Source: Bacteroidota bacterium (GTDB lineage Bacteria; Bacteroidota; Rhodothermia; Rhodothermales; JABDKH01). Taken from it: a DNA stretch of 52,400 nucleotides. The position numbers and the translations under genes were made by a program. Below are positions 19,700 to 44,853 of this stretch, in pieces. The stretch is from positions 1 to 52,400 of the forward strand of contig JAGQWL010000231.1 of the NCBI GenBank assembly GCA_020437385.1. The letters run 5' to 3'. The notes beneath the pieces are model-generated. The model did not search any database, was not told where the DNA came from, and saw nothing but the letters and a program-made list of their open reading frames with translations. The stretch's first letter is position 1, and each line of letters opens with the position of its first letter.

Positions 19700-20539
19700 T
19701 CAGTTGTCCAGGAAGAGCGGGACCGGACATTCCTTCAGGAGTCCGGCGGTAGTTGATCCAAAGGCAACGCGTTTGATCGCGGAAACCGAATGCGCGCCTG
19801 CGACAACCAGATCTGCACCCGAGTTGTTGGCGTATTCGATGATGTCGTTCTCAGTGGACGAACTCTGCAGGGTGGTCGTGCGCGCTCCGTATCCGTACGA
19901 GGACACGTAGTCCTTCAACAAGCCGACAAGCAACTCTGCATCGTCCTTTTCCTTCTCGTACAGAGAGAGTATTTCGATTTCGATGTTCGTCCCAAATGGC
20001 GAGAGGTGAAGAAATTCCTGAGCAGCCCGCGCCGACGCACCACTTCCGTCATAGGTGATGAGGACCTTCTTGACGTCTCTGAAGCTTGTTCCGACCACGA
20101 GCGTGGCCGCAACCGTATTCTTCACCACGCGCGCAACCGTGTCCGTGTCCTTGTCTGGATGAGCGTAGAAAAAATGAGGGTTTTTGCCCATTATCAAGAG
20201 ATCGTGGTACTTCATGTCCTCAACGATCCGTTCAAACGGCACGCCTTCCTCGGCATGGACGCCGTACTTGACACCAGAGCCCTCCATGGCGTTCGAGAAT
20301 CTTCGCGAGATCTCCTGCGCCTTTTCCCGCGACTCATCCGTCAGGCGTTCCCGAAGCATCTTTCCGTAGTAGAAACTGCCAATACCCCCACCTCGAGAAC
20401 TGGATTCGATGCTCTCCATGTCGACCACCGTAAGACCGTTAATCTGCGCCTCGTGCCGTCGCGCAATTTGAATCGCGACGGAAGTGGCCGCCTTGGTGTC
20501 GAGATCGGGATCAAGAGCGACTAGGATACGCTTGAGCAT
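19700..20539 (-). CDS. Universal stress protein, two tandem UspA domains
   Basis: A 279-residue cytosolic protein with two Usp domains. Domain 1 starts MLKRILVALDPDLDTKAATS and contains HDLLIMGK. Domain 2 starts KVLITYDGSGASARAAQEFL and contains ADLVVAGAHS, followed by FGSTTAGLLKECPVPLFL, matching the ATP-binding GxxxxGxxS/T-type end. The start at 20539 is chosen because MLKRILV is the domain's first strand; the frame upstream has no Usp character. It converges on the glycosyltransferase gene with a 23-bp gap. On its upstream side lies the AT-rich origin-like region. Confidence 0.93.
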   Translation of the reverse strand: MLKRILVALDPDLDTKAATSVAIQIARRHEAQINGLTVVDMESIESSSRGGGIGSFYYGKMLRERLTDESREKAQEISRRFSNAMEGSGVKYGVHAEEGVPFERIVEDMKYHDLLIMGKNPHFFYAHPDKDTDTVARVVKNTVAATLVVGTSFRDVKKVLITYDGSGASARAAQEFLHLSPFGTNIEIEILSLYEKEKDDAELLVGLLKDYVSSYGYGARTTTLQSSSTENDIIEYANNSGADLVVAGAHSVSAIKRVAFGSTTAGLLKECPVPLFLDN

Positions 20540-20639
20540 CGGAGTTGGGAACAGTCGTTTGTTGCTCTGGTCGTTTGATTGCTCTGGGGCTGAACAATAA
20601 GCTACGCCAAGTCGCATCGACACCCAAATGCAGTATTGC

Positions 20640-21211
20640 GCCACACTCTCGGCTTACTCACACGCTCTATAATCTTCGAGAGATATATTTCTAAAATAAG
20701 TTGTAGTAGTAGGGACTGTTGGTAACTGGAACAACCATGTTGTACACCAAGTCCCCACACCACTAAAACCCATCCCTTCGGCTACTAACACATTATCCAC
20801 ACACAAAACGCCCTGAATCACCCTCCTCCTGAAGTAGTGTTGACATTCGTGGACATAATCTTGATGGAGAATGGAAAAGTGCACAAACCTGTCGATTTAT
20901 TGACAATTTTGGTGAACTGAACAGGTTGTGGGTATCTCATGATATCTCGGCCACCTTTCCACTGTGGCTACCAATGTTGATAGTTCTCAACAAACGGGGC
21001 GGTCGAAACGTTGGTTATCAACCCGTTATAAACAGGTGTGGAACAACCAGTTATGGGCGCAAACTGCGCAAAAACATCATCATTTGATAATATCGGGTCC
21101 CTTGATCCGCACCGGTTTTCGCGTCAGGACGCGGACAACGTTTGGAACAGTTTCTGATACCTCCTGTTGCTTGAAGACATCTTTAACAGACGCTGCGAGT
21201 CAGCGCTAGCC
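20640..21211. other. AT-rich intergenic region with DnaA-box motifs; candidate replication origin
   Basis: This is the longest gene-free stretch of the window and visibly richer in A and T than its surroundings. It holds one perfect DnaA box TTATCCACA (20793-20801) and several degenerate ones or CCACA/TGTGG cores near 20641, 20755, 20849, 20926, 20964 and 21037, plus TTATTGACA near 20898 and TTATAAACA near 21026. The 11-mer TGGAACAACCA occurs at 20727 and 21039, and two short inverted repeats, GTTGA/TCAAC and GTTG/CAAC, lie near 20976 and 21010. AT-rich tracts at about 20681-20703 and 20893-20911 could unwind. I see no convincing gene; a 76-codon minus frame here looks accidental. dnaA is not in the window, so the origin call is a hypothesis. 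Confidence 0.4.
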
Positions 21212-21832
21212 ATGAAAAACTACCTACTACGGATCGGGATCTTCGCGTTGCTTGTTTCTGCTTCGGCCTTCACGTTCCAACGGGAGGAAGCTGAGCCGCT
21301 GAAGATCGGCGATCCGGCACCGTTGACAAACCGTTCGTTAATGACAACGGCCGGTACCGAGGTGACGTTGGCATCGGTCAAGGGTGAGGGCGGTCTGCTC
21401 GTTATTTTCTCGTGCAATACGTGCCCGTGGGTTGAGAAGTGGGAGGACAGGTATCACACGGTTGCCTCGGCTGCATCGAGCCACAGTATTAACACGATTC
21501 TTCTGAATTCCAACGAGGCACTCCGTGACGGTGAGGAGTCGTTGGACGCGATGAAGAAGAGGGCGGCGTCGATGAGTTACTCGTTCCCTTACGCGGTTGA
21601 CCCGAACGCTGAACTTGCAGACGCTTTCGGTGCCAACCGGACACCTGAGGTCTATCTGTTCGACAAGGACCTGAAGCTGATATATCATGGTGCGATCGAT
21701 GACAACGCGCGCGACGCGTCTGCAGTAGAGTCTCCCTACCTGATGGATGCTATCGCGGCCTATGGATCCGGTAAGGCGATTCAAACGGCAGAAACGAAGT
21801 CGATCGGCTGTACCATCAAGCGGAAGCGGTAG
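21212..21832 (+). CDS. Exported thioredoxin-like (redoxin/TlpA type) protein
   Basis: A 206-residue protein with an N-terminal signal segment (LLRIGIFALLVSASAF). The ATG at 21212 places this segment at the start. The thioredoxin fold follows: LKIGDPAPL, LLVIFSCNTCPWVEKWEDRY with the CxxC pair Cys68/Cys71, YPFAVDP-type strand (SYSFPYAVDPNAELADAFGA) and TPEVYLFD with the cis-proline region. It ends SIGCTIKRKR, a tail common in this redoxin subfamily. It probably acts in the periplasm in thiol-disulfide exchange or peroxide reduction; the partner is unknown. A strong terminator follows at 21882-21914, so it is monocistronic. Confidence 0.88.
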   Translation: MKNYLLRIGIFALLVSASAFTFQREEAEPLKIGDPAPLTNRSLMTTAGTEVTLASVKGEGGLLVIFSCNTCPWVEKWEDRYHTVASAASSHSINTILLNSNEALRDGEESLDAMKKRAASMSYSFPYAVDPNAELADAFGANRTPEVYLFDKDLKLIYHGAIDDNARDASAVESPYLMDAIAAYGSGKAIQTAETKSIGCTIKRKR

Positions 21833-31703: not shown

Positions 31704-32773
31704 GTTAATGTGCCTTTGGAGCTTGGCACCTCGTTAGCCCGTGTTCCGCCCTCTCTCGCGACAGCGTCGCGAAGTGCCCGACCGACGCCCTTGAAAATCG
31801 CCTCGACCTTGTGGTGCGTGTTGTCACCATCGACAGAAATATTCAGGGTTGCGCCCAGGTTCTGTGCGAAGGAGTAGAAGAAGTGCTCAACCATCTCTGT
31901 CGGAAGCTCGCCGACGTACTCCCGTTCAAACGACGCGTTGAACACCAGATACGGGCGACCGCTTAGGTCGAGCGCAATCCGGGCAAGGCTTTCGTCCATT
32001 GGCAGAAGGAAGCCGAATCGACCGACACCGCGTCGGTCGCCCAGTGCTTTCGACAGCACACTTCCCAGGACGATCCCGCAATCCTCAATGGTATGGTGCT
32101 CGTCGACGTTGAGATCGCCGTCGCAATCAAGCTCCAGAGATATTCCGGCATGACGCGCGATCTGTTCGATCATGTGGTCGAAGAAGCCGAGTCCCGTGTT
32201 GATGCTGACGGGAGACGATGCGTCGAGGTTGATGTTCGCGCGGATCTTCGTTTCATTCGTGATACGCTCGATGGATGCTGTTCGCGGCCGGCCGACGAGC
32301 GACTCGAGTATCGATTTCCAGGAATGACCGTCCGGCCCGATTCGGAACGAATCGACTCCCAGGTTTCGTCCGAGTTGTTCGTCGCTCTCGCGATCCCCGA
32401 TCACGTAGCTGTTTTCGCGATCCAGGTCGGGCAGATAACCGAGGAGCATGCCGACACCCGGTTTACGCGTGGGTTCGTTTTCGTGCTCGAACGATCGGTC
32501 CACGTGGATCGCGGAAAACGTTACGCCCTGCGATTCAAGCACATCCAGAACGAGTTGATGGGGTCCAGCAAAGTGCTGCTCGGGAAAGGAATCCGTACCC
32601 AATCCGTCCTGATTCGTGACCATCACGAGCTCCCACCCGGCCGATTGGAGCGTGTGGAGCGCCGTTATCGCATCGTCCACGAAGCGGACCTTTTCAAAGC
32701 TGTCGACCTGCTCGTCCGGCGGCTCGTGAATAATTGTACCATCACGATCAACAAAGAGGATTCGCCTGCTCAT
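31697..32773 (-). CDS. hisB: Bifunctional histidinol-phosphatase / imidazoleglycerol-phosphate dehydratase
   Basis: A 358-residue fusion. The N-terminal HAD phosphatase has the DxDGT motif FVDRDGTIIHEPPDEQVDSF and VIGDRESDEQLGRN. The C-terminal dehydratase (from about residue 170) has LGFFDHMIEQIARHAGISLE, DEHHTIEDCGIVLGS, the ALGDRRGVGRFG block, VEHFFYSFAQN and HHKVEAIFKGVGRALRDAV. It does steps 6 and 8. The ATG at 32773 overlaps the hisD stop (ATGA), which fixes the start; an upstream ATG would add 12 residues. Confidence 0.97.
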   Translation of the reverse strand: MSRRILFVDRDGTIIHEPPDEQVDSFEKVRFVDDAITALHTLQSAGWELVMVTNQDGLGTDSFPEQHFAGPHQLVLDVLESQGVTFSAIHVDRSFEHENEPTRKPGVGMLLGYLPDLDRENSYVIGDRESDEQLGRNLGVDSFRIGPDGHSWKSILESLVGRPRTASIERITNETKIRANINLDASSPVSINTGLGFFDHMIEQIARHAGISLELDCDGDLNVDEHHTIEDCGIVLGSVLSKALGDRRGVGRFGFLLPMDESLARIALDLSGRPYLVFNASFEREYVGELPTEMVEHFFYSFAQNLGATLNISVDGDNTHHKVEAIFKGVGRALRDAVAREGGTRANEVPSSKGTLTW

Positions 32774-42828: not shown

Positions 42829-44853
42829 TTACGAGTTCATCACCACAACGAACTCGTCGTTGTTGCGCGTGCCACGCATCTTCTCGAGGAGGAACGTCAT
42901 CGCCTTGATCGGCTCCATGTCCGCAAGGATGTTTCGGAGGATCCAGATGCGATGCAGCTTCGCTTCGTGAATGAGCAGCTCCTCGCGACGTGTACCGGAC
43001 TTGATCACGTTGATTGCCGGGAAGACGCGCCGGTCCGCGAGACCGCGGTCGAGCACGATTTCCGAGTTGCCGGTGCCCTTGAACTCTTCGAAGATAACTT
43101 CGTCCATTCGGGAGCCGGTTTCGATGAGAGCCGTTCCGATAATCGTGAGCGATCCGCCCTCTTCGACATTTCTAGCGGCCCCGAAGAACCGCTTCGGTCC
43201 GCGCAGCGCGCCTGCCTCGATACCACCGGAAAGCGTCTTGCCGGTGTTCGGCATCACCGCGTTGTGCGCGCGAGCAAGGCGCGTGATCGAGTCGAGCAGA
43301 ATAACGACATCCTGCTTTGCTTCGACGAGACGCTTCGCCTTCTGCAGTACAATCTCCGAAACTTCGACGTGACGCTCCGGATCCTGGTCGAACGTGGACG
43401 CGATCACTTCCGCGCCGGGCACGTTACGCTGCATGTCCGTCACTTCTTCCGGTCGTTCGTCGACGAGGAGGATGATCAGATACGATTCCGGATGATTCTC
43501 CACGATCGCATTCGCGATCTTCTGCATCAGAATCGTCTTACCGGTTTTCGGCTGTGCGACGATGAGCGCACGCTGCCCTTTCCCGATCGGCGCAAACAGA
43601 TCGAGTACGCGCATGCTCGTCTCGGACGCTGACGTTTCGAGATTCAGATGCTCGTGCGGGTAGAGCGGTGTGAGATAGTCAAAGTTGGCGCGCTCTTCGA
43701 GTTCTTTCGGATCGCGGCCGTTGACGGTGTTGACTTGTATCAGCGCGAAGAACCGTTCGCCCTCCTTCGGAGGTCGCACTTCGCCGTCTACCGTATCGCC
43801 GAGCTTCAGGCTGAAACGCTTGATCTGGGATGGCGAGACGTAAATGTCATCCGGGCTCGGAAGGTAGTTGTACTCCGCTGAGCGAAGGAAGCCGTATCCG
43901 TCAGGAAGCACCTCGAGGACGCCGACCTTGCGGATCATGCCGTCGAGGTCCGTGTTGTTCGGGTCGTACTCGGACATGTAAACCGGCCGACCGTCGTACA
44001 CCTTTTTGAGGCGCTCCTCGCGCGCCTGGCGCGACTCCTGCTTCCGCTTGTTGCGCCGGTCATTCCGGTCGTTGCCGCCTTGACGGTCGTTTCGATCGTT
44101 TCGATCGTTGCCGCCCTGACGGTCATTCGGCGTATTTCGGGAGTTGCGGTCGCCCTTTCGGTTTTTTCGATCGTTGGACCTTCGGTTGCCATCCGATCGC
44201 CGGTTGCGATTTTTGTCGCGTGACCGGTCACGGCGGTCAGACCGTGAGTTGTCACGCTGATCGCCGCCACGATCGCCACGCGAATCGCCGCGATCACCAC
44301 GTGAATCATTGCGATCACCGCGATCACCGCGTGAATCATTGCGATCGCCGCGTGAGTCATTGCGATCGCCACGTGAGTCATTGCGATCGCCGCGCGAGTC
44401 ACCGCGATCTCCACGTGAGTCACCGCGCGAATCTCCCCGCTGGTCGTTTCGTTCACGTCGAGAGTCGCGTCGCTGATCGTTCCGGCGATCATTGCGACGA
44501 CGTCCCTCGTCACGGTCGCTATCGTCACCGCGACTCTGGTCGTTTTCGGTTTCAGTCATGGCCTTATCATTGCCGTTGTTGTCTGACCGTGGTTGGTCGC
44601 CCTCGTCGCCACGACGGGAGCCGTTGCGACTCTGTCGGGACGGGGCATTGCGTGAACCTGAGTCGGCGGCCGGTGCAGCTGCGGTGGCAGCTTCGGCGGA
44701 ACGCTTGAGGGCCGACGACTTCTCGGCGTGTGCCTCCAGGATCATGTAGATGAGCTCCTGCTTCCGCAATCCGGAGTATCCGGAGAGCCCGAGATCTCGG
44801 GCCGAGTCGCGAAGTTCGGAGAGTTTCTGATCCTTGAGATCCGAAATCTTCAT
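42829..44853 (-). CDS. rho: Transcription termination factor Rho with long disordered insertion
   Basis: A 674-residue Rho, about 250 residues longer than E. coli Rho. Residues 1-48 are the SAP-like N-terminal domain ([20 protein letters not shown]). About 50-290 is a low-complexity region of Arg, Asp, Asn, Gly and Ser with repeated SRGDRND units. The RNA-binding OB domain follows ([20 protein letters not shown]), then the ATPase with [20 protein letters not shown] (Walker A), [15 protein letters not shown] (Walker B) and the R-loop region. Such insertions occur in Bacteroidota and have been tied to RNA binding and phase separation. It acts as a hexamer. A 378-bp leader region separates it from folC. 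Confidence 0.97.
44270..44440 (-). repeat. In-frame 21-bp repeats coding the Rho disordered region
   Basis: Units of the form GTGAATCATTGCGATCACCG (plus strand) recur near 44301, 44331, 44352 and 44373 with spacings of 30, 21 and 21 bp, and decay on both sides. They encode seven-residue SRGDRND-type repeats. The multiples of three keep the rho frame open, so unit number could vary without loss of function. Confidence 0.8.

Follow-up and report, generated by a model that had tools for sequence, protein, structure and literature searches.

The 669-bp non-coding gap at positions 20543-21211 of the window, the whole 52,400-nucleotide stretch of Rhodothermales DNA analysed here, is very probably the chromosomal replication origin (oriC) of this bacterium. 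The assignment is made from sequence, and is built on the gap's DnaA boxes, its DnaA-trios, spacer and AT-rich element, the turn in GC skew that it marks, the uniqueness of its unwinding module in the genome, the conservation of the region, and the skew minima at its counterparts in relatives. The activities that we infer for it—DnaA binding, melting and helicase loading—are drawn from other bacteria.

A cluster of DnaA boxes upstream of usp

An origin with clustered DnaA boxes had been proposed in an AT-rich gap at 20640-21211. The right edge of that gap stands; the left moves to 20543, being set by the conserved usp start ATG at 20542 and not by the upstream GTG at 20644. Within the gap so defined, between usp (-) and a redoxin gene (+), GC content is 0.46, as against 0.55-0.62 for most of the window, and the cluster is borne out: six DnaA boxes lie within one mismatch of TTATC(C/A)ACA (TTATCCACA or TTATCAACA). 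The number expected from 500 dinucleotide shuffles is 0.40 (sd 0.60, maximum 3; none reaches six), and no other stretch of the window as long as the gap holds more than two. The features of the gap and its surroundings are:

19700-20542, minus strand: usp, universal stress protein gene (Pfam Usp match; homologues and their upstream gaps), the conserved neighbour of the origin in the order
20543-21211, no strand: predicted oriC, the gap between usp and the redoxin gene, with six near-consensus boxes, the skew turn, and homologous gaps upstream of usp across Rhodothermales
20793-20801, plus strand: perfect DnaA box TTATCCACA
20975-20983, minus strand: DnaA box CTATCAACA
20984-20992, plus strand: DnaA box TTCTCAACA
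21015-21045, plus strand: array of three distal boxes, spaced in steps of 11 bp, TTATCAACC (+), TTATAAACA (+) and TGTTCCACA (-)
21212-21832, plus strand: redoxin gene, ATG at 21212; in the complete relative G020 it is 3 kb more distant, with pgi and moeA in between

The perfect TTATCCACA is thus present, as originally predicted. The distal array scores 23/27, the shuffle maximum being 20. Some 265-330 bp away, the origins of relatives often have a distal triad of boxes (+,+,-), which in several of them may be a second DnaA assembly site. A model made from these triads, R2, finds no match in the window or in the draft genome to which it belongs, and the window's array would be a degenerate form of the triad, a resemblance noticed post hoc. 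The repeats cited in the original prediction are there and carry little weight: the 11-mer TGGAACAACCA at 20727 and 21039 is a short two-copy match, and the one inverted repeat, of 11 nt (21003/21136), is imperfect; both are of chance quality. The gap contains a single GATC and no GATC cluster, and an Rfam search of the window returned tRNAs only.

A predicted unwinding module beside the window's most AT-rich stretch

The left part of the gap holds a feature absent from the original prediction, an unwinding module (20668-20725) that strengthens the reading as oriC and decides the question of an origin. The basal unwinding system (BUS) known from oriC of Bacillus subtilis, with homologues predicted elsewhere, has a DnaA box, a short GC-rich spacer, at least three trios, and an AT-rich region (PMC6669920, PMC8287927); the window's module has these in the same order and strand polarity. 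The published rule allows up to two mismatches in the DnaA box and 0-16 bp of spacer, and asks for three or more NAN trios (PMC8287927). The corresponding elements of the window are:

20668-20703, no strand: predicted AT-rich duplex-unwinding region, of which 20668-20702, at 80% AT, is richer in A and T than any other 35 bp of the 52.4 kb
20704-20712, plus strand: three DnaA-trios, TAGTAGTAG (3'-GAT-5' repeated, outward from the box), aligning with the motif in relatives
20713-20716, no strand: GC-rich spacer GGAC, 4 bp, between trios and box (BUS rule, PMC8287927)
20717-20725, minus strand: module DnaA box TTACCAACA, two mismatches from TTATCCACA
20696-20724, plus strand: match to model R1, which has no other in the 4.69-Mb draft genome (E 0.004 over that genome, 5.1e-5 over the window plus the dnaA contig)

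Trios have a defined polarity, 3'-GAT-5' read outward from the box. Read in that direction, TAGTAGTAG becomes 3'-GATGATGAT-5', with a central A in each trio and the correct polarity. The box with its two mismatches, the 4-bp spacer and the three trios all lie within the limits of the rule, three being its minimum number of trios. The window's most AT-rich element lies directly against the trios. R1 is a profile of the modules of ten relatives, from which the window was left out. The window's module scores 19.5 bits on it, against up to 43 in relatives, many of which score higher; its score is lower because its boxes follow the TTATCAACA-like variant.

GC skew turns at the gap and at its counterparts in several relatives

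A minimum in the cumulative GC skew of the full chromosome was expected at the proposed origin; a turn at this place is found within the window, and a minimum at the homologous gap of several complete relatives. Since the genome is a draft of 488 contigs, the curve was computed within the window: it falls to a minimum at 20.5-21 kb, then rises. Mean G-C per 500 bp is -9.2 to the left of the gap and +4.5 to the right (block-permutation p about 1e-4, neighbouring blocks being not fully independent).

The module marks the local skew minimum to about 2 kb in four complete relatives and to about 4 kb in a fifth. In G020 (3,261,604 bp) the curve is still descending at dnaA (0.7 kb) and reaches its turn at 32 kb, the site of the module (32257-32305). 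Skew sampled around this chromosome is nearly always positive between 40 kb and 1.5 Mb and without exception negative from 1.65 Mb round to the origin, the pattern expected for bidirectional replication; by 20 further samples the opposite turn falls between 1.5 and 1.65 Mb, at half a chromosome's distance. Minimum and module stand at 585 and 586.3 kb in G028, at 236 and 236.27 kb in G037, and at 1492 and 1491.91 kb in G051, these being local minima from the 80-120 kb around the module. The fifth, G017 (3,551,823 bp), has its module at 13.0 kb and its minimum at about 17 kb.

Three further genomes, complete or near-complete (G011, G015, G016), show local skew that is noisy or a turn displaced from the module. 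The displacement in the complete 4.5-Mb chromosome G015:C1 is at least 65 kb, with the module at 2394105 and the turn beyond 2460 kb; a recent rearrangement or a different origin would account for it.

The predicted origin is separated from dnaA

The sole Bac_DnaA match of the genome lies on another contig (C349, 5.5 kb), next to dnaN, which puts dnaA at least about 20 kb from the gap. The absence of dnaA from the window was correctly noted in the original prediction; the gap is adjacent to neither dnaA nor dnaN, and neither dnaN nor gyrB was found among the large ORFs scanned in the window. The 669 bp upstream of dnaA contain three box-like sites, two of them perfect TTATCAACA, against six in the gap, and R1 finds no match on the dnaA contig. 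A richer cluster beside dnaA, which would have spoken for an origin there, was accordingly not found, and an origin at that place was rejected. The boxes upstream of dnaA more likely serve autoregulation.

All the closed or near-closed genomes of the order that were examined show this separation, at distances of 12-230 kb. From the module to the nearest dnaA listed, the distance is about 12 kb in G017 and G027, 13 kb in G083, 21 kb in G051, 31 kb in G020 and G006, 70 kb in G015, 111 kb in G016 and 230 kb in G011; in G028 and G037 a second dnaA copy lies 25 and 30 kb from the module, the other copy being 164-170 kb away. The proposal of an origin apart from dnaA is thus upheld by the box cluster, the skew turn and the conservation described below, and holds for the members of the order examined.

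We considered that the gap might instead titrate DnaA, as datA does, or be a DnaA-regulated promoter site with boxes controlling usp and the divergent redoxin gene, the true origin being elsewhere, for example by dnaA. Divergent promoters do share the gap, for usp (-) on one side and the redoxin gene (+) on the other, and two perfect TTATCAACA sites also lie upstream of dnaA. A titration site, however, needs neither trios nor an AT-rich unwinding element, and would not be expected to mark the skew minima of complete relatives. Boxes are fewer near dnaA, where R1 finds nothing, and in G020 the neighbouring pgi reads towards the gap, so that a shared divergent promoter is not conserved. We regard this explanation as very improbable.

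Two full-length dnaA genes are present in many Rhodothermales (G001-G005, G012, G017, G027, G028, G032, G037), and in several of these genomes only one copy adjoins dnaN; the draft genome containing the window shows one dnaA. G048 has, besides its true dnaA, sixteen short DnaA-like ATPase matches, which are probably helper ATPases of insertion sequences.

The module is conserved beside usp across much of Rhodothermales

Conservation of the intergenic region, another check on the original prediction, is seen in much of the order, where the module lies upstream of the same usp. Homologues of usp are 42-57% identical across the order, and in most of the genomes examined the AT-rich gap upstream has 4-11 boxes. 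The core of the relatives' sequences aligns nearly ungapped, as TAGTAGTAG, a spacer and TGTGGA-NA-TGTGGA. R1 finds a match at E up to 1 in 97 of the 114 genomes of the order, many of the matches being strong and some of the weak ones due to chance. At 33 usp loci, in records labelled Rhodothermales, Rhodothermia, Rhodothermus or Bacteroidota, the match lies about 70-310 bp upstream of usp in some two thirds to three quarters; boxes average 4.0 in the 669 bp upstream, compared with 0.26 in 404 control stretches. Some usp loci, such as L198 and L204, have no boxes; paralogy of usp or loss of the linkage would explain them.

The flanking genes named in the original prediction are both present, and it is usp, not the redoxin gene, that is the fixed neighbour of the origin. 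The order in G020 is usp, origin, pgi, moeA, redoxin, and by eye the coding start that comes after the gap in G023 and G010 looks like that of MoeA. In relatives the redoxin gene comes after moeA or elsewhere, and it was rejected as a conserved neighbour; its position directly after the origin in the window implies that pgi and moeA have either disappeared from this interval or moved. The usp gap of G001 has only a degenerate module, and a module-like sequence, TAGTAG...TTGTGGA, lies beside one of its two dnaA genes (L064, G001:C1, ~2640); in this lineage the origin may have moved or been duplicated.

These data bear on two further explanations. A chance cluster in an AT-rich intergenic region, which the chance quality of the 11-mer pair and the inverted repeat would suit, can practically be discounted, given that no shuffle in 500 reaches six boxes, that the module is the sole genome match to a model made from other species, and that place and make-up are alike in dozens of relatives. 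An origin belonging to a mobile element, such as an integrated plasmid, is just as hard to credit: plasmid origins also have DnaA boxes and AT-rich stretches, but chromosomal housekeeping genes (ychF, comEC, rho, the histidine operon, recJ, folC) lie on both sides of this one, no replication gene was seen next to it, and the gap is conserved in chromosomes, at the skew minimum.

A chromosomal origin remains by far the most probable reading. A more speculative extension, which we think unlikely, is that in Rhodothermales the origin parted from dnaA in the distant past and became tied to usp, and that the linkage has been retained in much of the order through functional coupling, with transcription of usp or its product modulating origin firing under stress.

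Comparison with known origins

By analogy with other bacteria, DnaA would bind the box at 20717-20725, and the other boxes over about 330 bp, and would extend from the module box along the single-stranded trios TAGTAGTAG (20704-20712), building a filament on their strand; melting of the AT-rich DNA at 20668-20703 would let helicase load there, and two forks would leave in opposite directions. The origin would work in trans to dnaA, its initiator being encoded on C349.

The origin of Bacillus subtilis is at dnaA. The window's module differs from the BUS of that species in lying far from dnaA and in having a box that follows the TTATCAACA-like variant of its lineage. Origins unlinked to dnaA, as in the window, are found in Escherichia coli and Synechococcus lividus PCC 6715 (PMC8287927, PMC6323995). 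The BUS score of E. coli is relatively weak (PMC8287927), whereas the unlinked origin of the window keeps a standard BUS; it also differs from that of E. coli in having no GATC cluster. With other predicted Rhodothermales origins it shares the gap upstream of usp, the trios and the tandem boxes, and is set apart from them by the missing pgi and moeA before the redoxin gene and by its degenerate triad. As a type, the dnaA-unlinked oriC with a canonical BUS is known, and the window's origin is another case, of ordinary mechanism. What is new, to a modest degree, is that origins throughout the order lie apart from dnaA while keeping usp beside them and the module intact, a combination that the literature examined does not describe. 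In titles and abstracts we found no published description of a Rhodothermus or Salinibacter origin; the DoriC database may already list these origins.

A standard unwinding module can, it appears, persist in an origin unlinked from dnaA. For an order known mostly from draft metagenome assemblies, the origin now has a useful landmark in sequence—the gap upstream of usp in which TAGTAGTAG is followed, after a spacer of 3-5 bp, by TGTGGA or TGTTGG—which makes estimates of replication rate from read depth possible and corrects the habit of placing base 1 of such genomes at dnaA.

One minor observation concerns the rho gene of the window (42829-44853): at 674 aa its product is far longer than the 413-residue family model, and must carry a large insertion or extension.
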